Below, one piece after another: positions 1 to 12,189 of a DNA stretch of 64,000 bases (the stretch's first letter is position 1; every line of letters starts with the position of its first letter). The stretch covers positions 1 to 64,000 of the forward strand of contig CAKQCB010000007.1 in assembly GCA_934216615.1 (NCBI GenBank). The letters are read 5' to 3'. The notes beneath the pieces are model-generated. The model saw only the letters and a list, made by a program, of their open reading frames with translations. It ran no database searches and had not been told where the DNA came from. This DNA comes from an uncultured Anaerolineae bacterium (GTDB taxonomy: Bacteria; Chloroflexota; Anaerolineae; Aggregatilineales; Phototrophicaceae). The translations under genes and the position numbers were made by a program.

Positions 1-590
1 CCATTGGGGCCAGTCACGACGTAGTCCAAGTTGCCACTTGGCCCGCCATTGTTGGTGACGGTAAAGGTTAAGGTGTTGGTGACCACAGAACATTCAGGCA
101 CCACGGTCAGGTCTGCGTAATTGTTACAAACAACTGTCGTTTGTGTGCTGACATTGCCAAGACCGGTGATTGTGACTGTATACGTTCCCGGAGGCGTACT
201 ACCCAAGTCAATCACTCCACTTGTGCCACCCGTGGGGATGGAAGGAATGTTGCCTGTTTGTGAGTAGTTGTTCGGCCCAGTCACTGTGTAGGTCAAAGGC
301 CCGCTTGGCCCGCCATTGTTGGTGACGGTGAAGGTCAAGGTATTACTGACCACAGCACATTCTGCAATCACTGAAATATCTGGATATTGATTACAGACAA
401 CCGTGGTTTGGGCTGTGACGGCACCACCCGTGCTTGTGTCAACAATTTCTACCGTGTAAGTTCCCGGCGCGACACTACCCAAGTCAATCACTCCGCTTGT
501 GCCACCCGTGGGGATGGAAGGAATGTTGCCTGTTTGTGAGTAGTTGTTCGGCCCAGTCACTGTATAGGTCAAAGGCCCACTTGCTGTCGA
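1..590 (-). repeat. Tandem ~270-bp repeats encoding beta-sandwich domains
   Basis: Near-identical blocks recur at spacings of 267-276 bases. The block beginning cccaagtcaatcactcc is at 202 and again at 478, and the block ttggcccgccattgttgg is at 38 and again at 305. Both spacings are multiples of three, so frame is kept. Identity between copies is very high in places, pointing to recent duplication or gene conversion inside the surface-protein gene. Confidence 0.85.
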
Positions 591-3563
591 ACTATTGCTG
601 ACAGTGAACGTCAACGTATTGGTTGCCACAGAACATTCTGCCGACACGCTCAATTGAGCTGAAGGTGTAGGCGTGAATGTGGGCGTATTCGTTGGCGTGT
701 TGCTGGGCGTAAATGTTGACGTTGGCGTGTTCGTTGGCGTGTTGCTGGGCGTAAATGTTGACGTTGGCGTGTTCGTCGGCGTGTTGCTGGGCGTAAACGT
801 TGACGTTGGCGTGTTCGTCGGCGTGTTGCTCGGCGTAAACGTCGATGTAGGCGTATTCGTCGGTGTGTTGCTCGGCGTATACGTATTTGTCGGCGTATTG
901 CTTGGCGTAAACGTTGACGTTGGCGTGTTCGTCGGTGTGTTGCTGGGTGTATTGGTTGGTGTATTGCTGGGTGTCACCGTAAATGTTGGCGTATTTGTCG
1001 GGGTTGCTGTTGGACGAGGAATACATCCAGCATCCGACTCAAACGTAATCGTTCGTGAACCGCCCACTACGGACACGGAGTAAGAACCATAAACCAACGC
1101 ATTCGGGGCTAAGTTAGGAATGAGTACGCTATTACCCGTGCCTAATTGGAATGACACAGGCCCGTCAAGCGGTTGCCCTAACTCATCAATATAGTATTCA
1201 CCCGCAGTGGGCATGGGGCCACCCGTATTTATCAAGCTGAAGGTCGCGCTATCAGTCCCATTACACGTGATCGATACCTGAATACTTGGCGGTGGAACCG
1301 TCGTTGGGGTGAAGGTTGGCGTATACGTTGGTGTATTCGTGTTCGACGGCGTGAACGTAGGTGTACTCGTTGCCGTAGAGGTTGGCGTATACGTAGACGT
1401 CGGTGTATTTGACGGTGTCCGCGTTGGGGTATTCGTTGGGGTATTGCTCGGCGTCCGTGTTGGGGTACGGGTCGGCGTATTGCTTGCCGTGAACGTATTT
1501 GTTGGCGTATACGTGCTGGTTGCTGTTGGAGCCACGCAGCTTGTTATAGCCACAACCGAACTTAATGCGGGGTTAAAGACCGTATTGGGTGGCAAGTTTT
1601 GGCTTTCAAACCGAATACGCCAATCCACTCCATAGAATTGCCCAACATTAGTGTTGATCTGTTTGGTCTGATTATTGATCGGACTCAAACTGCCGTTGTT
1701 CACATATTGCCAATAACTATTATTGGCCCAACGTTCAATCACATAGAATACTTGCCACACACCTGTAACTGGTGTACCTGAATGCGTCACGCTCCAAGTG
1801 ATATTCCCTGTCGAATCGCACACGCCACTTGCAGACAAAACAATGGGCGGCAAATTCGTTGGGGTGTTCGTGGGCGTGCGTGTTGGGGTACGCGTTGCAG
1901 TATTACTTGGTGTGAACGTAATCGTCGGCGTGTTGCTCGGCGTACGTGTAAACGTCGGCGTGCGCGTCGGGGTACGTGTTGGCGTATTGCTTGGCGTGAA
2001 GGTATTCGTCGCCGTGCCCGTCGCCGTAGGCGTGGGCGTAATGCTTGGCGTATTCGTCGCCGTTGGCGTGTTGCTCGGCGTACGTGTAAACGTCGGCGTA
2101 CGCGTTGGGGTACGTGTTGGCGTATTGCTTGCCGTGAACGTATTTGTCGGCGTAAACGTGTTACTTGGAGTCGATGTCGCTGTAGGCGTATTACTCGGCG
2201 TAAACGTATTCGTCGGCGTATTGCTCGGCGTATTGCTCGGCGTATTGCTCGGCGTGAATGTATTCGTTGGGGTATTGCTGGGCGTAAACGTTGGCGTGAT
2301 GCTTGCCGTAAACGTCGCCGTTGGGGTGTTGCTCGGCGTACGTGTAAACGTTGGCGTGCGCGTCGGTGTACGCGTTGGCGTGTTGCTCGGCGTGAATGTG
2401 TTGGTTGGAGTATTTGACGGTGTGTTCGTTGGGGTATTGCTTGGCGTCAATGTATTGGTAGGTGTCGGGCTAGGTTGAATACAGGTTTGATACTGCTGAG
2501 CCTGTGAATCAAATTCGCCAACCGGCGTATTAGTAAATTGACGGTATTGGACACGCAAACCAGAACTGCCAACTCCAATCAGAACAAAATCCTGTGTCTG
2601 GCCTGCAGTTAAAAATATAGGTTGGGGAGCGCCAGTTACGCCGCCGTTACGGACGGTGACTTGGCCGTTCTCAAACATATCCCCACCATTATTTCGAACT
2701 GTGAAAAGCACTGAATTGTCGTCCGGCACAAAACATTGGCTAATAATTTCCAGAGAAGGAGGATCGCCCGGCGCTAAACCTAGCGGACTTACGGGCATTT
2801 CATCGGTAGTTTCTGGAAGACTGCCACGCCCAAAATTTTCTGTTGTTGGCGTCAGTGTCGGTAACTCAGCGGGTATTTCAGTTGCAGGTTCGTCTGTCGG
2901 TGGTACCTCTGTTGGAGGTACGTCTGTTGGTGGAATATCTGTCGGTGGTACTTCTGTTGGAGGAACCGCTGTCGGTGGCTCTGGTGTCGGCAAACACCCC
3001 CCTAAAGCAGGGTCACCCGCTTCATTCGGGCACATGTCAACATCATCGGTTAAACCATCCCCATCGCTATCGGGGACAGGTGTTGGTAAACACCCGCCTA
3101 AAGCAGGATCACCCGCTTCGTTCGGGCACATATCAACATCATCGGTTAAACCATCCCCGTCACTATCGGGAATACAACCATCTACGGTACCGGGCGCAGA
3201 AATATCTGGACATATGTCAAGATAATTAGGAACACCATCTCCATCATCATCTAAACATCCGTCTAATGTACCGGGCGCAGGTTCATTTGGGCACAAATCT
3301 AGATCATCTGTGATTCCATCACCATCGCTATCGGGCGGAGGTGCTTCTGGGCATCCCCCCGGCCCAGCTTCTGCAGGACACGGGTCCGAACTATCGGGAA
3401 TCCCGTCCCCATCTGTGTCAGGGTCTTGAGCAATTTGTTGGTTAACCGCTGTACCAGACAAATTCGTCCCACCCTGAGACAACAGAATAGCCCCGACGAC
3501 TAAAACGACGAGGGCTGCGGCGGCGACAATCACAATTTGCCTATTTCTTTTTCCGCTTTGCAT
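1..3563 (-). CDS. Giant cell-surface protein with TSP3 calcium repeats, Thr-Pro linkers and beta-sandwich repeats (C-terminus beyond window)
   Basis: One frame stays open from the ATG at 3563 to base 1, at least 1187 codons; the C-terminus is outside the window. AGGAG lies 10 bases before the start. A short basic N-terminus is followed by one hydrophobic segment (residues 9-30), so the protein is exported or anchored by its N-terminus. Next come five thrombospondin type 3-like repeats with DxDGDG calcium motifs and paired Cys (about residues 48-190), a Pro-Thr rich segment, a folded block near 2480-2800, and three long linkers built from TPTNT, TPSNT and TPTRT units (about 1852-2470, 1300-1532 and 667-1013) that separate globular blocks. 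Bases 1-660 encode three copies of a roughly 90-residue beta-sandwich repeat with motifs [12 protein letters not shown] and [10 protein letters not shown]. The order suggests rigid, possibly O-glycosylated stalks carrying adhesion modules; the role is inferred. Confidence 0.85.
1852..2470 (-). repeat. Thr-Pro coding minisatellite (longest of three)
   Basis: Degenerate short repeats code for TPSNTPTNT / TPTRTPT on the minus strand. Two shorter arrays with the same units lie at about 667-1013 and 1300-1532 in the same gene. The opposite strand and the other minus frame are also open here, giving artificial VGV-rich and histidine-rich ORFs. Confidence 0.85.
2990..3180 (-). repeat. Direct repeat of 96 bp encoding duplicated TSP3 units
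   Basis: The block starting cctaaagcagg at 3001 recurs at 3097 with few changes. It codes for two almost identical TSP3-like units ([14 protein letters not shown] followed by [12 protein letters not shown]). The spacing of 96 bases keeps frame. Confidence 0.8.
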
Positions 3564-3674: not shown

Positions 3675-4319
3675 TTATCTCCTTCCGCTGGTGGCATTTG
3701 CGATCAACGATTGGCAAGCCAAACGTTGCCAGTACAAATCATCATCTTTAGGCAGTTCTAACGCAGTCCATGAAGACGGCATATTCGCTGCTTGCGACGA
3801 TGGTATCTGGTAATACATATAAAGTGCGTAGCCGTTCACGTTATAGGGGTTTTCATCAATGCCGAGGCATGCTGAAAAATCACCGTCAGAGGTAGACGTA
3901 AACAGCGGAGATGGGCGATCTGCTTGTGCGATTTCTGGAAGTTCGACCGCAGGCATGTTCGGAAGCGCTCGTTCAAAGGTGGGGTCTACGCCTGTCAACG
4001 CGGCGTATGAGCGCGCAAGGATATAATCCATGTCGGGTTGGGTTTCGCGTATTGTTTCAGAGAAAGTTTCGGTGGTGGTGAGGGTGTTCAGGCGTTCCAT
4101 AGCGGTAGCAATTATTTCGTCTTCTGTGGGGTACAATTCAGTGAGCCACTGCTCGGTTGTATCCATGTCTACGAGATAATATGCTGGGGTTGACCCGGGA
4201 ACTAAACCGGCGGTGCCAAACAAACTTAAGCGTAATTCTGGACTCGATAGCAAAATAAAACTGACCACGAGACCTGTGACAAGCCCGCCGACTAAAAATG
4301 CAATTTCTCTACTTTTCAT
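3675..4319 (-). CDS. Membrane-anchored protein of unknown function
   Basis: 214 residues starting MKSREIAFLV, with GGAG before the ATG. One hydrophobic segment (about residues 7-27) anchors or exports it; the rest is acidic, rich in Thr and Glu, and has two Cys. I recognise no family. It lies 111 bases upstream of the giant surface protein on the same strand, so the two could be cotranscribed and share an envelope role, but that rests only on position. Confidence 0.7.
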   Translation of the reverse strand: MKSREIAFLVGGLVTGLVVSFILLSSPELRLSLFGTAGLVPGSTPAYYLVDMDTTEQWLTELYPTEDEIIATAMERLNTLTTTETFSETIRETQPDMDYILARSYAALTGVDPTFERALPNMPAVELPEIAQADRPSPLFTSTSDGDFSACLGIDENPYNVNGYALYMYYQIPSSQAANMPSSWTALELPKDDDLYWQRLACQSLIANATSGRR

Positions 4320-4820
4320 TATCGCTCTCCACTTCGGTAACCCTTAGTGTGTATTCATCATATTGAAATATGTTGTAATAGTCGCGCGTTTAACCTAAAA
4401 AGGGTCGATTTTTTTACGTTATTCACAAAACTGATTCAAATTCGCTCAAATTCCTTTTTATCCCCTCGCTTTATTTCAAGAAATATTAAAACCGAATATT
4501 AAAATTCAGGTTTTATGCAGCTCATGATCCATAATTAGATAACAAGTGGCCTCATTGCGCAATAAATTCCATGCACTTCCTATGTACCAGTCAACCAAGA
4601 TGCAAGGTTCATACGTGAATGAAGGATGATATGTAAGAATTCACAAATATAATGAACTGACTGCCAACCTATTCATGGCTCAATCTTCATGAGTAGCGAC
4701 ACACTCCCTCTTAACCAGAGGGGTGAAGGGGATATCAATAAAAAAAGTGGAAGAATCAGAACGGGGTATTCTTTTGTTAAGAGAGAACCATCTAAGGTTT
4801 ATTTTTTCATACCATATATC
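4320..4820. other. Intergenic region, no gene recognised
   Basis: About 500 AT-rich bases. A 74-codon plus-strand ORF (4689-4913) runs into the end of the cyclic-nucleotide-binding gene and lacks a clear ribosome site, so I do not call it. CCCTC and GAGGG arms around 4704-4723 could form a small hairpin downstream of the minus-strand operon. No RNA gene was seen. Confidence 0.5.
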
Positions 4821-5402
4821 TTACTTTGGAGTTTGATCCCATTCCTGAACTTGTTTGACCATGCCAAGGAAGGTACTAATCAGCCCGCTGATTTCGTCCG
4901 AGTCTCCATCTAGTAGAATTTCATGAATCGCGCGTTCATATTCTTTGCTGGATAAAAGCTGGACCGCTTCAGCGACATGCTCAAGAAAATTGGTCGTGTA
5001 GCGAATCCGCTCGGCGAGACTGCGCATCATCTCGACGCCCAAGATAGGCCGTTCATTGAGGAACTTCACAAATTTACTGCGTTCCAATATCCAAACTTCG
5101 AGCGCGTCCACGGCATCCGCAAAAGCTGAGCGAGGTTGACCATCTAAAATCGAAAATTCCCCGACCAACTGGCCTTTGCCATAATGCCGAAATGTGATTT
5201 CGTGGCCTTGAGTGTCGCGCATGAAAACACGAATCTGCCCAGAGCGTATGAGATACATCGAATCACCCGGGTCACCTTTTGAAAAAAGCAGCGTCGAAGG
5301 CTCAAACTGTTTGATCTCCATCGTCTTTGCCAACGCTTCTAAATCGGCAAGATCGACAGAGCGAAACAGCGGGAAATCTTTTAATTCTTCAGCAAGACTC
5401 AT
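4821..5402 (-). CDS. Cyclic-nucleotide-binding domain protein
   Basis: 193 residues. Residues 10-125 form a CRP/PKA-type cyclic-nucleotide-binding domain. The phosphate-binding cassette is clear: GEFSILDGQPRSA with Glu82 and Arg91, the residues that normally contact the ribose and phosphate. No helix-turn-helix follows; the C-terminal 60 residues are acidic and helical, so this is a sensor or adaptor rather than a CRP-type repressor. It lies 28 bases after the PrsW-cNMP gene, and its domain closely resembles the C-terminal part of that protein (shared DGQPRSA and the ERxRYTT motif), suggesting duplication. A role as a second cAMP/cGMP receptor in the same pathway is inferred. Confidence 0.88.
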   Translation of the reverse strand: MSLAEELKDFPLFRSVDLADLEALAKTMEIKQFEPSTLLFSKGDPGDSMYLIRSGQIRVFMRDTQGHEITFRHYGKGQLVGEFSILDGQPRSAFADAVDALEVWILERSKFVKFLNERPILGVEMMRSLAERIRYTTNFLEHVAEAVQLLSSKEYERAIHEILLDGDSDEISGLISTFLGMVKQVQEWDQTPK

Positions 5403-5430
5403 TCACACAGCCCTTTTATGTGCATCATCG

Positions 5431-7197
5431 CTACGCTTTATCTGAAACAGAATCCTGCCCTTGCAATGTCGTGGCGAATCTTGCAAAGGCATGATCTAAC
5501 GTCACTTTCACATCAGAAGACAGTTCCGTGTTCTCTGTCGGTTTCGCAGTGACGGACTGGGCAGAACGTTGCGAAATTTCAGCAAAGCGTCCTTCAGCAA
5601 TTTGCCGTGCCGTGTTGATGCTATCCTCAACGGCGGATGTCGTGTATCGAGCGCGTTCAGCCAGCACTGCCAAGACAGCCAAGATCACCTGTGGACGACT
5701 TTGGATGAAAATCTTAAACATTTGCCGACGCAAAACCAACGCGACCAAATCCCCTTGAGCGCGGGCGCGGGCAGACCGAGGTTGACCATCTAGAACCGCA
5801 AAGTCACCGACCACTTGCCCTCGTTCAAAAACACGTAACTTTTTCTCGCGCCCCAGATCATCAACGGAATAAATAGCGATTCGCCCATCTTCAATGAGAT
5901 ACATCGCGTCACCCTCATCGCCCTGATCAAAAAGCTGTTCCTGATCAGAAAAGCGTGTGACTTCAATCGCCCGTCCTAAATTCTCTAGGTCAGCGAGAGA
6001 TACATTTTTGAAGATTTCGATGTGATGCAGACGTTCGGCCATCTCGCTCAACTGCGCCGCACTCAGCGAAGACGCAAGCCCCGATGTACGCATAAACACA
6101 TCAAAGGTGTGCACCATCGTCGGGTCACTGGATGAAAATTCTTCCAGAAGCCAGTTCCACATGCTTTCATCTTGGGTGGGGAATACCGTCTGTAAATAAC
6201 TCATCACAGTACGGTTGAGTTGTTTGCGAATCGCCTGAAATTCTATTTTTCGCTCTGTAATTTCAGCCGTCCACGCCTCTTGCAAGCGGTCGCTGATATT
6301 AGGGTTTTCCAAATTGTTCTGCAAAATGCCGATGTTGGCTTGTGTGAGCAAAAGTTTACGGATCAGTTCGATATTTTCGTCACCTAGCGAACGCTCCAAA
6401 TGATCCCAAATTTGATCTTTACTGCCTTCACCGAGGCTTTGAATCGCGATGCGCTCACCGTCAGAGACATCACTTTTTTGATTGAGCGATTGGGTGAAGC
6501 GTTGTTTTTCCTGTTTCAGCCCAAGGTTGATTTGAAGGCCGATAAACGCAGCGCCCCCTAAACCAAACAAAATCGCCACTAACAATAAAGCGGGGCCTGT
6601 CAGCGTATTCACGATGTTGTTATAGAGGATGTGTGCCAAAATCGCCAAGGCGATCCCAGCGAGAGGCAGTATCACACTCCCCCCCTGCTGACGGCGTAAG
6701 CGACCTAAAGAAATGCCGACGACACCGCTTGCCATCGCGTGCATCAACGAAGTGGACAACACACGGCTCACCGCCAATGAAAGCGCCGCTGTTCCACTGT
6801 TGGCAATATAGAAGTAGTTCTCCATCACAGCAAAGCCAATTCCGACAGAAAAGCCATAGATCGCGCCGTCCACAAAATAACGGAACGATGGACGTCTGAA
6901 GATGTAAATCAGAATGACGGCTTTGAGAACTTCTTCAATAATCGGAGCGACAAAGCGCACAATCGTCTGGTAACCTTCGCTGTTCGTCAAACCTAAATCG
7001 ACCAAAAGCTGCAACGCTTGGTTATTCACGATATAGGCGATACCAAACGCACCGAACAGCCCCCAAAGTGCGCAGGTAATCACGGTATCCCACTTGGAAG
7101 TACCAAAAAGGTCTAAAGCGCGGATGGCTAAGAATGCGATGACCGGAATAACAATAGCAACCAAATAAGCAATGAGTGTTGGTAGATTGATCGACAT
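5431..7197 (-). CDS. PrsW-family intramembrane protease fused to a cyclic-nucleotide-binding domain
   Basis: 588 residues. Residues 1-225 are polytopic and carry the PrsW/CAAX-protease-like motifs: EExxK (Glu88, Glu89, Lys92), a Glu in GFAVMEN (Glu126), His153 in LMHAMASG and His189 in LAHILYN. Residues 230-385 are a hydrophilic, mostly helical linker. Residues 390-515 are a cyclic-nucleotide-binding domain with cassette GDFAVLDGQPRSA and Arg474; the usual Glu is Asp465. Known PrsW enzymes (Bacillus subtilis) make the first cut in the anti-sigma factor RsiW. Here the gene follows an ECF sigma / membrane-protein pair on the same strand, so the likely substrate is the 144-residue neighbour and the likely signal a cyclic nucleotide; both points are inference. 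It has its own promoter at 7236-7264 and lies after a terminator. Confidence 0.88.
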   Translation of the reverse strand: MSINLPTLIAYLVAIVIPVIAFLAIRALDLFGTSKWDTVITCALWGLFGAFGIAYIVNNQALQLLVDLGLTNSEGYQTIVRFVAPIIEEVLKAVILIYIFRRPSFRYFVDGAIYGFSVGIGFAVMENYFYIANSGTAALSLAVSRVLSTSLMHAMASGVVGISLGRLRRQQGGSVILPLAGIALAILAHILYNNIVNTLTGPALLLVAILFGLGGAAFIGLQINLGLKQEKQRFTQSLNQKSDVSDGERIAIQSLGEGSKDQIWDHLERSLGDENIELIRKLLLTQANIGILQNNLENPNISDRLQEAWTAEITERKIEFQAIRKQLNRTVMSYLQTVFPTQDESMWNWLLEEFSSSDPTMVHTFDVFMRTSGLASSLSAAQLSEMAERLHHIEIFKNVSLADLENLGRAIEVTRFSDQEQLFDQGDEGDAMYLIEDGRIAIYSVDDLGREKKLRVFERGQVVGDFAVLDGQPRSARARAQGDLVALVLRRQMFKIFIQSRPQVILAVLAVLAERARYTTSAVEDSINTARQIAEGRFAEISQRSAQSVTAKPTENTELSSDVKVTLDHAFARFATTLQGQDSVSDKA

Positions 7198-7235
7198 AAA
7201 ATCCCGAAATCGAACAGCATCAATAGAGAAGTCAC

Positions 7236-7264
7236 ATTATGTACAAAAAACACAGGGTTAACAA
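7236..7264 (-). promoter_or_regulatory. Predicted sigma70-type promoter of the PrsW-cNMP gene
   Basis: On the minus strand TTGTTA (7264-7259) is followed by 17 bases and CATAAT (7241-7236), about 40 bases before the ATG. It lies just past the sigma/anti-sigma terminator, so the protease can be expressed apart from them. Confidence 0.5.
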
Positions 7265-7310
7265 AAACAAACGCACCCAAGCTTCTGAGAAACTTAGGTG
7301 CATTTTATAA
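7262..7310 (-). terminator. Rho-independent terminator of the sigma/anti-sigma pair
   Basis: On the minus strand GCACCTAAG pairs with CTTGGGTGC (one wobble) around a short loop, followed by GTTTGTTTTTGTT. It lies about 25 bases past the stop of the 144-residue gene. Confidence 0.65.
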
Positions 7311-7330
7311 GTTTTGTTTCTCTTTAGGAT

Positions 7331-7765
7331 TTATCCGCGGCGCCAGACCGCCACAATAATTGCAGTCACAATGACGATGGTCACGATGAGCACGACGGGT
7401 ATCACCCATATTGCCCCCTCAGCAGTGCCTAATAAATTAGGCTCTGTTTCATAAGTTAATAAGAACAGTACCGACGCAGCAACTAAGATCACCGCAGCAG
7501 CGCTCGCTAACATTATGAAGGGGCTTTTTCTAAACCTGCTTCTGCGAACCGTTCGTTTATTGAATTCAAACTCAAGGCGTTCGCGCAAACGTTCATCAAA
7601 TGCGGGAGGCAAAGACTCACTCGGGCGAATCAAATTATTCAATTGTTGTACAACAGAAACTAAGTCATCCATCTCCTCATGCGGAGTGAACCCTGCCGAT
7701 TGATTTTTCAGGACAGTGTCTGTCATCTTGGCTAACTCATCGTCTAATTGTTCATTACGATCCAT
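7331..7765 (-). CDS. Putative membrane anti-sigma factor (two C-terminal TM helices)
   Basis: 144 residues. The first 80 are hydrophilic and helical and would face the cytoplasm. Two hydrophobic helices follow (about 84-108 and 118-141) with only about ten residues between them, ending in WRRG. There is no Cys at all, so the zinc anti-sigma (HxxxCxxC) motif is absent and the assignment rests on context. The gene starts one base after the stop of an ECF sigma factor, the usual arrangement of a sigma and its inhibitor. The short periplasmic hairpin would leave little for a site-1 protease to sense, which fits control by an intramembrane protease; that is inference. Confidence 0.65.
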   Translation of the reverse strand: MDRNEQLDDELAKMTDTVLKNQSAGFTPHEEMDDLVSVVQQLNNLIRPSESLPPAFDERLRERLEFEFNKRTVRRSRFRKSPFIMLASAAAVILVAASVLFLLTYETEPNLLGTAEGAIWVIPVVLIVTIVIVTAIIVAVWRRG

Positions 7766-7766
7766 G

Positions 7767-8315
7767 CTAGCTGTCTACCTCATCCATGTTGTCGCGGATC
7801 GCCTGTATCGCTCTTCTATATAACGATTTGACCGCTTCTAATGATTGCCCACGTTGTTCTGCGATTTCGGCAAATGAAAGGCCGTCGGCAAACCGTTGAA
7901 GAACAATTTCCTGATAATGATCAGGAACATTCGCTAAGGCCACTTGTAAGATAATGCGCTGATCATTCGCCTGAATATCCGTATCGTCTGGAATGTCGCG
8001 CATCCCATCTTCCCCATCATCTAAAGATTGATTCGGAATCGAACGGTTGCGTCGGCGATAAAAGTCAGCAATTTGCCTATTCACAATGGTATAAAGCCAT
8101 GTGTTGAACTTCGACCGTTGTTCATAGGAATCTAAAGACCTTACTAAGGCGATAAAAACATCTTGAGTCACATCCTCAACATCTTGAGGAGGCACTTTGC
8201 TTTTCACGCGGTTATAAACACGCTTTAGATATCGATCATAAAGCGCGTAAAACGCGTCACGATCACCCAATTGAGCCTTCCTCGCCAGCAACTCATCACT
8301 CGTATAACCAAACAT
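7767..8315 (-). CDS. ECF-type RNA polymerase sigma factor
   Basis: 182 residues, the usual ECF size. Region 2 covers about residues 12-92, with DVEDVTQDVFIAL and the downstream NTWLYTIVNRQIADFYRR stretch. Region 4 covers about 125-175, with the helix-turn-helix FAEIAEQRGQSLEAVKSLY. An acidic linker (SLDDGEDGMRDIPDDTD) joins them. AAGGT lies five bases before the ATG. The stop is one base from the start of the membrane partner, implying translational coupling. The cyclase gene ends 113 bases upstream on the same strand, so the sigma may have its own promoter or be read from further up. Confidence 0.92.
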   Translation of the reverse strand: MFGYTSDELLARKAQLGDRDAFYALYDRYLKRVYNRVKSKVPPQDVEDVTQDVFIALVRSLDSYEQRSKFNTWLYTIVNRQIADFYRRRNRSIPNQSLDDGEDGMRDIPDDTDIQANDQRIILQVALANVPDHYQEIVLQRFADGLSFAEIAEQRGQSLEAVKSLYRRAIQAIRDNMDEVDS

Positions 8316-8428
8316 TGATTACCTTACATATTAGGTTAGTCGCAAAAAACCGTATAGAAGTGCCGAACCTTCATAAATTAATCATAAATCTATAAAAAGT
8401 CGAAAATTGCTTTGCTGAGGATGGGGAT

Positions 8429-11400
8429 TCAGGGCGACGGATTACGAAGCAATTCTAACTCTCGCTGTATACTTTTGTCGTTTGGCAAAAGGGTCAAAGC
8501 AAAAAGATAATATTCTTCTGCCTTCTCAATATCTCCTGCAGTCTTTGCGATGGACGCGCCTTCTTGCAGGATTTCTATCGCTTGTGGCAGTTGTCCCGTT
8601 TTCAATAGATGATGTACCCGTTGACGACGGACGATATCACCTTGCGGGTGGTTATCCAATGCTTTTAAAGCAAGTTGATGATATTTCAAACGTTGTGCTC
8701 GTGAAAGGGTCTCATATATTGCATTTTGTGTTACGCCGTGTTGAAAGACATACGCGTTTGGCATGGATTGTTCAATCAAGTGCTGTTGAATCAAGTCCAA
8801 CAAGACTTTTTCGATTTCTTCGCGTTCTAAGTTGGTCAGCAGAATTAAGTCTTCTATCGTGAAGTCGATCTCTAAAACAGCGGCGGCCCGCAAAACAGTT
8901 TGGGCGTAGGAAGTTAGATGATCCAACCGGCTGACGATGAGCTTGCGTATATCTTCGGGGACTTTATCTAAAGAAAAATCCGCTTTTAATTCGGTGCGTG
9001 TATCATTCATTTCTAGCGCCAATTCTGATTTCAACAAACGGATTAAAGATTCGATGAATAATGGCCGTCCGCTCGAACGATCCCAAATCAACTGATGTAA
9101 GCGCTTCCCAATCTCATGGACATTTAAAAACTGCGCCGCAATTTTGATCGTTTCCGCCTCAGACAAGTCAGGAACTTTAAATTCCTTCATGCTAGTGCTC
9201 ACGTCGGCGCTGGATTCGCTGGTGAGCAAGAACACCACCTGCCCTTGCGTGATCTGCTCGATCATCTGGTTGATGTAACCTTTAGCTAGCTCATTTTCAT
9301 TCTGAAAATCATCAATCACAATATAGGTAGGGAACTTACGCACAAACGCCTTCAAGAAGGTGATGCAGACCGAAACGGTATTTGTACTTTGTTCCACAGC
9401 GAACCACATCCCCGTGGTACGGGTATCTTCACTCGGCGTTTGGGCAACACGTTTTTCAGATTCACGGGTTAAGAAACTGAATAGCCCAGATCGTTTTTTA
9501 TCGTCAGAAGACATTTTAGAAACTCGGTCATAAATGTCTGTGACAGAGGCTTTATTTACGGTAGGGGTTGATTCTCGCTTCCATAAAAGATCGGCAAGCG
9601 CGGGTTCTAACCGAGCGATATTTAAAGACTCAAGCAACGCTTTCAGTTTCGGCCGTTCAACACGGCTTTTTTCATTCGGGTTGATGCCCACAAGCTGTGC
9701 GACGATAGTTGCTAAGGTAGATACATGGTCGTTTCGCGATTGGCAAGTTGCCCATGCATGCTTGAAGCCTTTTTCCAGCGATTGGTCAAACATGTGCTTG
9801 GCGATTCGTGTTTTGCCGATTCCGGCATCCCCCACCAACATGATGGCACGGCGACGGCGTGCCGTCGTCACTTGTAACAAGGCCAATTCTAAAGGCAATA
9901 AAAATTCGCTATGCCCAACAATTTTATTTTCAGAGGTTTGCGCCGCCGTTGCCGACGTATTCACTTCCCGTTCAACCGAATACACCTCAACAGGCTTGCT
10001 CTTTCCTTTTAAGTGCATCACTTCTAAAGGATGCATCACAAACGCATTAGCTACTTTTGAGTGTAAGTCTTGCGCAATGATGATTTCATTCGGGCCAGCC
10101 TTCGACATCAAGCGAGCAGCGAGGTTGATCGCATCGCCCATCAATGTATATTCACGTCGATTTTGAGAGCCGACTTCCCCCGCAAAACTTTCACCTTGCG
10201 TGATGCCGATGGAGACATTTACGCTTGGGTTTGCAAAGGCCAAATCATGAGGCAGATCGGCTAAAATACGATCAGTGAATGCTATGGCTTCTTTGCGTAT
10301 TTCAATTGCGGTTTGAACTGCGCGGAGGGGATCATCTGGGTAGGCGACGGGGGCACCAAACGTCACCAACATTTTAATGCCCAGCTTATACGGGTCAGTG
10401 CGGGCTAAAACGCCATTGTTTCCGGAAATAATCTCTTGCACACGCCTGTAAAAACGATCTAGATAACTGGTCACACGGCTCACTTCGATATCGCCCCACT
10501 GCGTGAGCATCTCGCTAAAGCCTGTCACATGGATGAATAGCGTGGTCGTGAAACGGTTCTCACTGCGCACTCTATAATCGGCGCTCGCCAACAGTTGATC
10601 TAAAACGGTCGGGGAAATATACGCCGCAATATTAATAACGCGATCCACTTGCTCGGTGACTGAGTGGGCTAAACTGTCCACCTCAAAATCAAATAGCCAT
10701 TTGGCCGCTTGGTTGCGTTTGCGCGTGGAGCGTATCAACTCGAATGAGTCGAGCTTCTCACCTAGCGTATCCAAAACGTGATAGAAACCGCCCTCAAGCG
10801 CTTTTAAGTCAAACTCGTCGGCGATGACCTGCGCAATTTCCTGTGTAACGAGGACATCATCACGATCACCATACGATTCGGCCTCCATCGCTAAACCGGG
10901 CAGAATCCCCTGAATGACATGATCACGCTGAACTCGTCCGCGTCGTTCATCGCTAAAAGCACGTCCCTGTTGAACGCCCATCCCGACTAAAGTTTCAAAC
11001 AAAACCCCATTGGCGATGCCGATGGACATCATCAAAGCGATATGATGATTTTCACCCAGAATTTCATTCACTTGTGGGTTCTGAATTGGCTGGAAAAATT
11101 CGGCCATTTTCCGCTGCATACGTAACCCCGCACGTACAGCTTTATAAATGGTACTGGGGCTGTCTTCAGGGAAGAAAACTAAGAGTGCGTCACCGGCGAA
11201 CTTTAAGAGATGCCCGCCAGAAGCCGCGACTGCTTCCAGCATCATGCCGAAATAATCATTGATCGTGTCGGTGAGCGCTTCCGCGCCTTCGGCACCGCGC
11301 GCGTTTTGTAACCGTTCGGAAAGTGCCGTGAACCCTGAAACGTCAGCAAACATAAACACGCCCGACTGCAACGCGTAATATTGTCCGTCGAGGATGGCTT

Positions 11401-11563
11401 CATTTTCGCTGATGTACGTGGGTAAAAATGAGGAGATGGCAATATGCAGGCCCGTTAGATGGCGCAGCATCGTTTGTAAAGATTCAACACTCAAGTCATC
11501 AGGGACAGGTGTATTAGGCAATAAGCGCTTCAGATTTTTGAGAGTTGTCTCATCAAATCCCAT
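8429..11563 (-). CDS. Class III adenylate/guanylate cyclase, soluble-AC-like, with NTPase and TPR-like tail
   Basis: 1044 residues with the layout of animal soluble adenylyl cyclase: two cyclase domains and an NTPase module. The first (about 65-250) has both metal-binding Asp, in FADVSGFT (Asp74) and KFAGDALLVFF (Asp125, with Lys121). In the second (about 335-530) the first metal Asp is replaced by His345 (FIHVTGF), but the transition-state Asn480 and Arg484 are present in INLAARLM. The two should build one active site. A P-loop GDAGIGKT (578-585) and a Walker-B-like IVIDD follow, and helical repeats end the protein. The product is probably cAMP (inferred). Two cyclic-nucleotide-binding proteins are encoded downstream on the same strand. 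Confidence 0.92.
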   Translation of the reverse strand: MGFDETTLKNLKRLLPNTPVPDDLSVESLQTMLRHLTGLHIAISSFLPTYISENEAILDGQYYALQSGVFMFADVSGFTALSERLQNARGAEGAEALTDTINDYFGMMLEAVAASGGHLLKFAGDALLVFFPEDSPSTIYKAVRAGLRMQRKMAEFFQPIQNPQVNEILGENHHIALMMSIGIANGVLFETLVGMGVQQGRAFSDERRGRVQRDHVIQGILPGLAMEAESYGDRDDVLVTQEIAQVIADEFDLKALEGGFYHVLDTLGEKLDSFELIRSTRKRNQAAKWLFDFEVDSLAHSVTEQVDRVINIAAYISPTVLDQLLASADYRVRSENRFTTTLFIHVTGFSEMLTQWGDIEVSRVTSYLDRFYRRVQEIISGNNGVLARTDPYKLGIKMLVTFGAPVAYPDDPLRAVQTAIEIRKEAIAFTDRILADLPHDLAFANPSVNVSIGITQGESFAGEVGSQNRREYTLMGDAINLAARLMSKAGPNEIIIAQDLHSKVANAFVMHPLEVMHLKGKSKPVEVYSVEREVNTSATAAQTSENKIVGHSEFLLPLELALLQVTTARRRRAIMLVGDAGIGKTRIAKHMFDQSLEKGFKHAWATCQSRNDHVSTLATIVAQLVGINPNEKSRVERPKLKALLESLNIARLEPALADLLWKRESTPTVNKASVTDIYDRVSKMSSDDKKRSGLFSFLTRESEKRVAQTPSEDTRTTGMWFAVEQSTNTVSVCITFLKAFVRKFPTYIVIDDFQNENELAKGYINQMIEQITQGQVVFLLTSESSADVSTSMKEFKVPDLSEAETIKIAAQFLNVHEIGKRLHQLIWDRSSGRPLFIESLIRLLKSELALEMNDTRTELKADFSLDKVPEDIRKLIVSRLDHLTSYAQTVLRAAAVLEIDFTIEDLILLTNLEREEIEKVLLDLIQQHLIEQSMPNAYVFQHGVTQNAIYETLSRAQRLKYHQLALKALDNHPQGDIVRRQRVHHLLKTGQLPQAIEILQEGASIAKTAGDIEKAEEYYLFALTLLPNDKSIQRELELLRNPSP

Positions 11564-11603: not shown

Positions 11604-11960
11604 CTATGTATCGTTGGAGAGCCGCCCAGAAAGTAACGACCATAAACCTTCTGTAGAGTTATTACCCTTTTTAGGTCGTAAATTGACGCGATAGCGAAAA
11701 TTAGGAGCCTCGCCCGAAATAATGAGCCACCCGTTTTGTTCCAATATGTTTAAAACAGGTTCGAATTCCGTAACTTTATCACCAACTCGCGTTTTTAGCA
11801 TCTCCAACGTCACCCCCCCCCGCGAAGCCGCCGGGTCGCGAAGCATTGCGACAAGGATGATTCGTTGTTCGGATGGAAGATCGGCAATATCTAATGCAGT
11901 AACCCCAGACGGTTCTTCACTGCCTAAAGAATTTTTGAGATGGTCATATAAGCCGGGCAT
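11604..11960 (-). CDS. Small winged-helix-like protein of unknown function
   Basis: 118 residues if started at the ATG at 11960, which has AAGGA seven bases upstream and lies ten bases after the preceding stop. A longer in-frame start at 12044 would overlap the zinc-finger gene and has no such support. The region LPSEQRIILVAMLRD through LEMLKTRV and LEQNGWLII resembles a winged helix with a closing beta wing (FRYRVNL). The tail is basic and Ser-rich. DNA or protein binding is possible. It appears to form a two-gene unit with the zinc-finger gene upstream. Confidence 0.65.
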   Translation of the reverse strand: MPGLYDHLKNSLGSEEPSGVTALDIADLPSEQRIILVAMLRDPAASRGGVTLEMLKTRVGDKVTEFEPVLNILEQNGWLIISGEAPNFRYRVNLRPKKGNNSTEGLWSLLSGRLSNDT

Positions 11961-11970
11961 ACGAATATCC

Positions 11971-12189
11971 TTAATAAAATTCAGGCATTTCGATGGGTTC
12001 ACCTTGAGGGCGACAAATTCCACACCAAATCGCATCCGCAACAATCACTGCTTTGGGCGTGTTATTCGCCCCAACATAGATTGTAAGGATAAATGGCATT
12101 TTGGATGCGTGATCTTTACACACAAAACGACCACAAAAACGGCATGAGGCGCTCACCACGCCTTCACAAACCCAACAAGCTACACCCAT
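11971..12189 (-). CDS. Small treble-clef-like zinc-finger protein
   Basis: 72 residues with a dense set of metal ligands: CWVC (Cys5, Cys8), CRFCGRFVCKDH (Cys16, Cys19, Cys24, His27) and CGIC (Cys56, Cys59). Enough ligands exist for two zinc sites, and the middle part looks B-box-like. The function is unknown. It is followed after ten bases by the winged-helix-like gene, so the two products may act together. Confidence 0.7.
   Translation of the reverse strand: MGVACWVCEGVVSASCRFCGRFVCKDHASKMPFILTIYVGANNTPKAVIVADAIWCGICRPQGEPIEMPEFY

Follow-up and report, generated by a model that had tools for sequence, protein, structure and literature searches.

We examined whether a run of minus-strand genes in a 64,000-nt stretch of DNA from an uncultured Anaerolineae bacterium (CAKQCB010000007.1, positions 1-64,000, assembly GCA_934216615.1; the whole stretch is termed the window) may encode a pathway in which a cyclic nucleotide controls a PrsW-type intramembrane protease and, through it, an extracytoplasmic function (ECF) sigma factor. 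An earlier note on this DNA had described five such genes in a row and had drawn from them a path from signal to cyclic nucleotide, intramembrane cut and sigma release. All five open reading frames (ORFs) were found where it had placed them, and the claimed domains exceeded the Pfam cut-offs: PF00211 and AAA_16 in the soluble adenylyl cyclase (sAC)-like tandem class III cyclase with an AAA/NTPase part (CYC, 8429..11563, identified by ORF, Pfam and alignment), sigma-70 regions 2 and 4 (PF04542 and PF08281) in the ECF sigma factor (SIG, 7767..8315, by ORF, Pfam and NCBIfam), PF13367 and PF00027 in the PrsW-type protease with a C-terminal fusion to a cyclic-nucleotide-binding (CNB) domain (5431..7197, with the PrsW match at ~6583-7092 and the CNB match at ~5698-5955), and PF00027 in a second, stand-alone CNB protein (4821..5402). 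The remaining gene, P144 (7331..7765), encodes the small membrane protein of the note with its two transmembrane helices (TM1, residues 82-105; TM2, 121-143), but it is not translated from the sigma stop itself, as P144 starts one base later (TAG-C-ATG).

Taken together, our analyses point to a second-messenger-gated regulated intramembrane proteolysis circuit, to which we give a probability of roughly 0.6 and which would run from nucleotide to PrsW, anti-sigma cut, sigma release and a regulon of proteins that carry a common box. What stood of the earlier pathway is the genetic circuit, which is supported by the linkage, the fusion, the intact residues, the motif kept in most CNB parts and the predicted promoters on SIG and on DN214, a gene downstream of the five. 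CYC would make a cyclic nucleotide, probably cAMP, which would bind the cytoplasmic CNB domain of PrsW (and the partner CNB protein) and turn the protease on. PrsW would then cut the two-helix P144 on its outer face, at an L-x-G-T-A box; the breakdown of P144 would be completed by a site-2 protease of the M50 family together with cytosolic proteases; and the freed SIG would transcribe its own sigma/anti-sigma operon together with genes of envelope proteins, here DN214 and a giant surface protein. Since the box also stands next to the membrane anchors of these two envelope proteins, PrsW probably processes or sheds them as well, or they compete with P144 for it. The linkage, the fusion, the intact residues and the sharing of promoter and box are read directly from the DNA, and we infer all biochemical steps, including the direction of gating. 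A site-2 protease family (M50, PF02163) was present in 10/10 genomes of relatives searched, which is weak evidence because it was equally found in 14/14 control genomes.

Conservation of the gene arrangement

PrsW relatives were collected by a scan of GTDB genome contigs, from which the best 80 of 257 relatives were taken (77 loci), and 40 further loci were fetched. Genes within 9 kb were compared between 81 distinct loci of the close PrsW subfamily and 29 generic PrsW loci, with P144 counted at E<1e-3; L140 and L141, which duplicate L044 and L069, were excluded from the 81, and five loci of middling PrsW score were excluded from the comparison. The counts for close loci are lower bounds because contig ends cut many loci, and p values throughout ignore shared ancestry. 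By this approach, CYC was found linked in 30/81 close loci, SIG in 38/81, P144 in 42/81, a separate CNB gene in 44/81 and UP146, a conserved small protein encoded upstream of CYC, in 39/81. By contrast, SIG was linked in 1/29 generic loci and each of the other four genes in 0/29. The order UP146-CYC-SIG-P144-PrsW/CNB-CNB-DN214 was also present in L002, L005 and L007, and in L012 up to the contig end, and was partial or rearranged in L001, L006, L013, L017 and L021. Thus, the five-gene arrangement is beyond chance, as its order recurs and its linkage is nearly missing at generic PrsW loci, and the conserved unit exceeds the five genes, with UP146 upstream and DN214 and the giant gene downstream.

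All 38 close loci with SIG also had a P144 match within 9 kb, usually in the next gene. A P144 match without SIG was detected in 4 of the 42 loci (L036, L039, L069 and L147), where it may cover the membrane part only; SIG occurred without CYC in 14 loci and CYC without SIG in 6. The refuting condition set by the earlier note, a fused gene found mostly apart from sigma/anti-sigma and cyclase genes, gave a mixed outcome: sigma and P144 were both within 9 kb in 17/36 fused loci and the cyclase in 8/36, while 19/36 had neither sigma nor P144. At the level of genomes, profile scans of 396 genomes of the class, with scoring limited to the 9 or 5 top candidates in each, gave P144 matches in 26 at E<1e-10 and in 74 at E<1e-3, mostly partial, and PrsW matches in 35 at E<1e-100 and in 245 at E<1e-10. 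All 26 genomes with a strong P144 match were among the 35 with a close PrsW (Fisher p 1.9e-33), a value that overstates independence because PrsW loci had supplied the seed of the P144 profile and the genomes are related to one another. In 22 of these 26 genomes, P144 was followed on its own strand by PrsW at no more than 7.5 kb; the other 4 had PrsW on a different contig.

The motifs reported for the PrsW family in the available portion of a Leptospira study are EExxK, FxxxE, H and HxxxD/N (PMC12943098), and the window PrsW carries all motifs of this (M82) glutamic intramembrane protease family: E88E89xxK92, F122xxxE126, H153 and H189xxxN193 were invariant across 30 aligned rows, and PF13367 was matched at 104.7 bits (cut-off 23.5). 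Cutting of an anti-sigma factor is predicted. The NCBIfam PrsW equivalog cut-off (NF033739) was missed (53.5 vs 225 bits), and by this score the window PrsW is a relative of the equivalog, not the equivalog itself. A maximum likelihood tree was built from 76 PrsW domains, leaving out 13 near-copies or duplicates and matches of <250 residues and keeping six of the generic rows. The nearest relatives were in Chloroflexota metagenome-assembled genomes (MAGs), Anaerolineae CFX9 (62% over 369 columns) and an Aggregatilineales MAG. The fused state required at least two changes on the tree, even when well-supported branches alone were counted, and the fusion appears, most simply, to have been gained twice, in the window clade and in L025/L026/L037, which are nested among unfused Anaerolineales genes. 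A separate CNB gene accompanied 30/45 unfused close loci, and a CNB part, fused or separate, was present in 66/81 close loci. The record of L007 is labelled Pleurocapsa minor (a cyanobacterium), yet its PrsW groups firmly within Chloroflexota; the bin is probably mislabelled.

The predicted promoter and the box shared with envelope genes

SIG matched TIGR02937 at 98.9 bits (cut-off 42.9) and had no region 3 match, as is typical of the ECF type. A two-part ECF-like element of fixed spacing was common to the regions upstream of SIG in relatives, a strict pattern recovering it in 23/38 SIG loci. In the window, this predicted autoregulatory promoter lies at 8337..8364 on the minus strand (GGCACTTC...CGACTA, 22 nt from the start of the -35 to the start of the -10 element). 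A promoter matrix was then trained on 15 loci, with the window and the genome of a relative (G001) excluded, and the whole window was scored on both strands. The top hit (22.7) was at 4379..4406 (minus strand), 59 bases before DN214 (3675..4319, minus strand), and is predicted to be a SIG-dependent promoter of that gene; a site in a repeat of the giant gene (16.0) and the SIG promoter (15.4) ranked second and third. The top hit in 400 kb of G001 was again before DN214, and the best hits in another relative (G007) fell before DN214, two giant genes and SIG, the last being identical to a training site. With a first version of the matrix, DN214 of the window and of G001 were the best two non-training hits among 1027 upstream regions. 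Sites other than those of SIG that scored >=17 in close loci numbered 13, of which 9 precede membrane-anchored genes with the box (four before DN214, two before giants and three before lipoproteins) and 4 precede doubtful ORFs of 72-103 residues; two of the nine (L049 and L145) are box variants read by eye and matched by a later pattern. This SIG-type promoter, the common box and the membership of the downstream genes are all additions to what the earlier note had read. Two strong hits elsewhere, G001:C20:158375 and G004:C22:25681, precede an alcohol-dehydrogenase-like and a short-chain-dehydrogenase-like gene (by eye) and may be chance or extra regulon members. In L047 (14855-17252, minus strand), a promoter-like site (16.6) precedes a FAD-oxidoreductase-like gene, next to which come a propeller-like lipoprotein that has a FLAGGAG box and then the cyclase (names by eye).

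The box of P144 (7421..7435, minus strand) is on the outer face after the first membrane helix, and the same box stands just outside the N-terminal anchors of DN214, which had no Pfam match (LFGTA, 4209..4223, minus strand), and of the giant surface protein (LSGTA, 3447..3461, minus strand). The giant gene (3..3563, minus strand, cut by the window edge) further encodes thrombospondin type 3 repeats and T/P-rich linkers. The box or a small-residue variant (GAS in L017, GSA in L005, GSG in L007) was found in 8/8 DN214 genes and in 8/8 giant genes with matching N-termini, window included; two matches to the giant through repeats alone (L023; L079, 2131-3960) were without box. Anaerolineales-type loci encode lipoproteins with L-x-G-[TSA]-[AG]-G soon after the lipobox cysteine, and the P144 profile also matched the helix-plus-box stretch of other genes in 4/20 genomes. 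An exact [LMI]xGTA after the first transmembrane helix was detected in 3 of the 17 transmembrane genes of the window, namely P144, DN214 and the giant gene, and in 2/328 in 1.2 Mb of two relatives, both cluster genes. In 800 kb of a third (G018), it occurred in 1/73 single-anchored genes, one that is not in the cluster and has its box within a hydrophobic stretch; this gene is one of the 2/202 single-anchored genes that had a looser box outside clusters (the window and 2.0 Mb of three relatives). A proteome-wide sorting signal was rejected on these counts, with GTA after the first helix near background in the 1.2 Mb and the looser box at 2/202. The strict GTA count misses the variants GSA, GSG, GAA and GTG, and cluster genes were checked by homology, ORF calling alone having missed P144 and DN214 of G004. 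PrsW has a box-like DLFGT behind its own first helix, which was set aside because the loop there is expected to face the cytoplasm.

Anchored box genes were present in 14/38 close loci with SIG vs 0/43 without, and therefore go with sigma rather than with PrsW; they were split between 7/36 fused and 7/45 unfused close loci. As a general mark of PrsW loci, the box lost support with the full count (14/81 close vs 1/29 generic, p 0.11) relative to an earlier partial count of 26 chosen loci, comprising 23/45 unfused and 3 of the second fusion (10/26 vs 1/29). Membrane proteins with [LM]xG[TA]A boxes were also seen near PrsW with no recognised sigma (L036, 4027-4479; L039, 5357-5743 and 6467-7009; L069, 4915-5394; L032, 19476-19937); some of these have a VRxWRE part, and they are possible further box substrates. 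We put forward, as a tentative proposal with a lesser chance of being right, somewhat reduced again by the full count, that PrsW-CNB is a nucleotide-gated sheddase with a single recognition code and that a juxtamembrane L-x-G-[TSA]-[AG] marks both the anti-sigma factor and the envelope proteins of the regulon, so that a nucleotide pulse would release surface proteins and trigger their resynthesis while P144 gauges the occupancy of the protease by box substrate.

Signal peptidase sites have small residues at -3 and -1, a rule that G-T-A satisfies. The box may then be an ordinary site of this kind, with the site-1 cut of P144 made by signal peptidase, the envelope proteins plainly secreted and PrsW-CNB acting elsewhere in the pathway. 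There is precedent in the portions available of two publications, where SipS/SipT and SipP are listed as site-1 proteases for RsiV and RsiP (PMC10202637), and signal peptidase acts on RsiP (PMC8844934). However, the commonest tripeptides after TM1 in the 1.2 Mb of two relatives include AQD and VAA; GTA was near its composition-expected level there (3 vs 3.4 and 3 vs 2.0), and exact [LMI]xGTA was confined to cluster genes. In addition, the box is also found behind lipobox cysteines, the territory of signal peptidase II, and its flanking L and G are conserved. We consider this explanation unlikely and favor a cut by PrsW at the box.

The predicted nucleotide arm and the proposed release of SIG

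By its tandem domains, two metal Asp and transition-state Asn/Arg, CYC fits a sAC-like class III cyclase. We take D74 and D125 to be the metal Asp and N480 and R484 to be the transition-state residues; the metal Asp were kept in 32/33 rows and N480 and R484 in 33/33. In alignments with human sAC, CYC T473 stood opposite T405 and K121 opposite K95, and the second adenine-contacting Lys of CYC could not be placed in the human sAC alignments. The equivalents of K121 and T473 were E and N together in 18/33 cyclases, 15 in unfused loci and 3 in the second fusion; these E/N cyclases fall within L025, L026, L037, L041-L061 and L142-L149. Such a correlated switch could mean a different nucleotide.

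The two CNB parts of the window matched PF00027 at 68.9 and 75.3 bits (cut-off 27.5) and retain GE/D...PRSA and RYTT, and Clr-cAMP was among the best structural matches of CNB. The motif G[EDQ]...R[ST]A was present in 73/84 CNB parts and the C-helix [TSN]T as well in 60/84. These parts are predicted to bind a cyclic nucleotide and to gate the protease. Many CNB-fold proteins are ligand-free, and the CNB parts could instead be scaffolds or sensors of another ligand, with the cyclase a coincidental neighbour; the 11/84 CNB parts without motif, six of them fused, and the 51/81 close loci in which the cyclase is not adjacent are in keeping with this. Yet the motif residues are kept in both CNB parts of the window, as in most relatives, the cyclase is linked in 30/81 vs 0/29 loci, and its catalytic residues are retained, which leaves a non-binding role for the CNB parts quite improbable. 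Some fused genes without linked sigma are paralogues: in 10 of the 19 fused loci without sigma, the assembly also contains a sigma-linked copy, as judged by accession (L014, L016, L028, L057 and L058; L029, L031, L033, L034 and L038), and in the latter five the CNB part has no binding motif.

P144 had no Pfam or NCBIfam match. Members of its family open at the N-terminus with a helical part, which is followed by a basic stretch, a pair of membrane helices and a basic tail; both ends are predicted to be cytoplasmic because of the basic stretch and tail (positive-inside rule). D16 alone was invariant, with D8, L11, L35, L64 and G113 conserved at >=90%. G113, the sole one of these six positions outside the N-terminal part, opens the G-T-A of the outer loop, which was exact in 19/26 rows. 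A structural model had a pTM of 0.37, with three helices before TM1. Attempts to place P144 in a recognisable anti-sigma family were abandoned: a single-sequence search matched only the window's own copy, the PDB profile and Foldseek searches came back empty (best Foldseek match E 8.4), and no anti-sigma family was among 25 of 30 Pfam families shown for 26 P144 members. A profile search gave 279 relatives, and among the 120 listed nearly all were unnamed, hypothetical or LPXTG-like, and one bore the source name anti-sigma-K factor RskA. The relatives P0153, P0169 and P0184 carry source names of LPXTG cell wall anchor proteins or of anti-sigma-K factor RskA, and the box, helix and basic tail of P144 relatives resemble a sorting signal. 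By gene context, P144 lies beside sigma, is membrane-anchored and stands behind the predicted autoregulated promoter. On this position, topology and promoter, P144 is the presumed anti-sigma factor of SIG, which it would bind until cleaved, with the box as its predicted cut site.

Several observations weigh against the circuit. Pfam, PDB profile and Foldseek searches link P144 to no anti-sigma family, and the co-occurrence of P144 with PrsW is biased upward by the seeding of its profile from PrsW loci. The generic locus L169 holds a sigma factor and a marginal P144 match (8e-4). Within 9 kb, 19/36 fused loci are without sigma (and without P144) and 28/36 without cyclase. The CNB parts without binding motif include those of six fused genes (L029, L031, L033, L034, L038 and L052), and the nucleotide may not be cAMP everywhere, given the E/N cyclases. 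The SIG promoter ranked only seventh in G001; the top hit in 800 kb of G004 lies outside the cluster, with SIG second; DN214 of L005 and L007 scored at background with the first matrix, although the promoter spacing is kept there; and two non-cluster sites (20.3 and 24.4) precede metabolic genes in 1.2 Mb. Finally, the difference in anchored box genes between close and generic loci was not significant, and the G-T-A of the box also fits a signal-peptidase site.

Some of these observations would also be expected if PrsW-CNB only matured or shed the envelope proteins with the box, sigma sensed the envelope via DN214, the giant protein or P144, and the nucleotide had no control of sigma release. 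The two-helix or short box proteins near PrsW without recognised sigma (L032, L036, L039 and L069), the 19/36 fused loci that lack sigma and the probably separate transcript of PrsW in the window favor such an arrangement. By contrast, the loop of P144 has the box too, on the same side of the membrane anchor, anchored box genes occur in 0/43 close loci without sigma, and strong P144 matches are confined to genomes with a close PrsW, so that we judge it highly improbable. Least probable is that the box serves as a docking motif. Envelope proteins and P144 would then bind one partner through it, the envelope proteins thereby reporting to the anti-sigma factor, and PrsW would cut P144 elsewhere or never: anchored box genes do track sigma and not PrsW as such, but the box is at the membrane surface, the expected place of a site-1 cut, and its residues are small, as residues at protease sites often are.

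Relation to known systems and neighbouring features

The model pathway for the proposed circuit is SigW/RsiW/PrsW/RasP of Bacillus subtilis, as presented in the portions available of two papers (PMC3498285, PMC10202637). Like that pathway, the locus combines an ECF sigma factor beside a membrane protein, a PrsW with all four motifs and predicted sigma autoregulation, and M50 proteases are encoded in the genomes of relatives (as in all controls). Unlike it, the PrsW here falls below the equivalog cut-off and has a CNB domain and a linked cyclase, P144 spans the membrane twice, with a short loop outside, and lacks any anti-sigma family match, and the box is common to the genes of the regulon. 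In the accessible text on the nearest published fusion, Leptospira LIC_20173 is a PrsW-PilZ protein, predicted active, for which the authors suggest anti-sigma cleavage (PMC12943098). Both proteins join a PrsW-type protease to a second-messenger domain, but the domain is PilZ (c-di-GMP) in LIC_20173 and CNB here, and a linked sigma/anti-sigma pair, a cyclase, a box and a regulon are all absent from that text. The RsiV and RsiP pathways likewise begin with a site-1 cut of a membrane anti-sigma factor, with RasP next, but there the site-1 enzyme is signal peptidase, and the portions available mention no cyclic nucleotide (PMC10202637, PMC8844934). As in cyclic-nucleotide-gated channels and Clr/CRP regulators, a CNB domain with PRSA and C-helix residues is fused to a membrane or output domain; unlike in these, the output here is a predicted intramembrane protease.

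A 2012 survey of PrsW in polymorphic toxins did not have a CNB fusion among those shown in its accessible part (PMC3482391). Among the matches listed in a search of open PMC full texts, the scope of which excludes subscription papers and preprints, no paper on PrsW with a cyclic-nucleotide-binding domain was found. We regard the predicted circuit as a variation on regulated intramembrane proteolysis in which a second messenger is the input and the genes of the regulon have the box of the presumed anti-sigma factor. To our knowledge, how PrsW is activated is unclear; a fused nucleotide sensor would place an intramembrane protease under direct second-messenger control, with input from the cell interior. 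Since the common box provides a concrete candidate cut site and a predicted list of substrates, the mechanism is directly testable.

Within the window, a terminator-like hairpin with a T run (7269..7305, minus strand) is present between P144 and PrsW. Its 17-pair stem (7305-7269) was the longest among 11 window hits, with shuffles yielding 9.2 hits of any strength. On this hairpin and the predicted promoter of SIG itself, the five genes are probably not a single transcript, SIG/P144 and PrsW/CNB forming separate units. Upstream of CYC, UP146 (11604..12044, minus strand) probably starts at 11960, because a 72-residue ORF (11971-12189, minus strand) overlaps the longest UP146 ORF. This short ORF, directly upstream of UP146, has a CxxC...C..C...C...H...CxxC pattern that is zinc-finger-like by eye, and in L021 a C-terminus similar to it reads just upstream of SIG.

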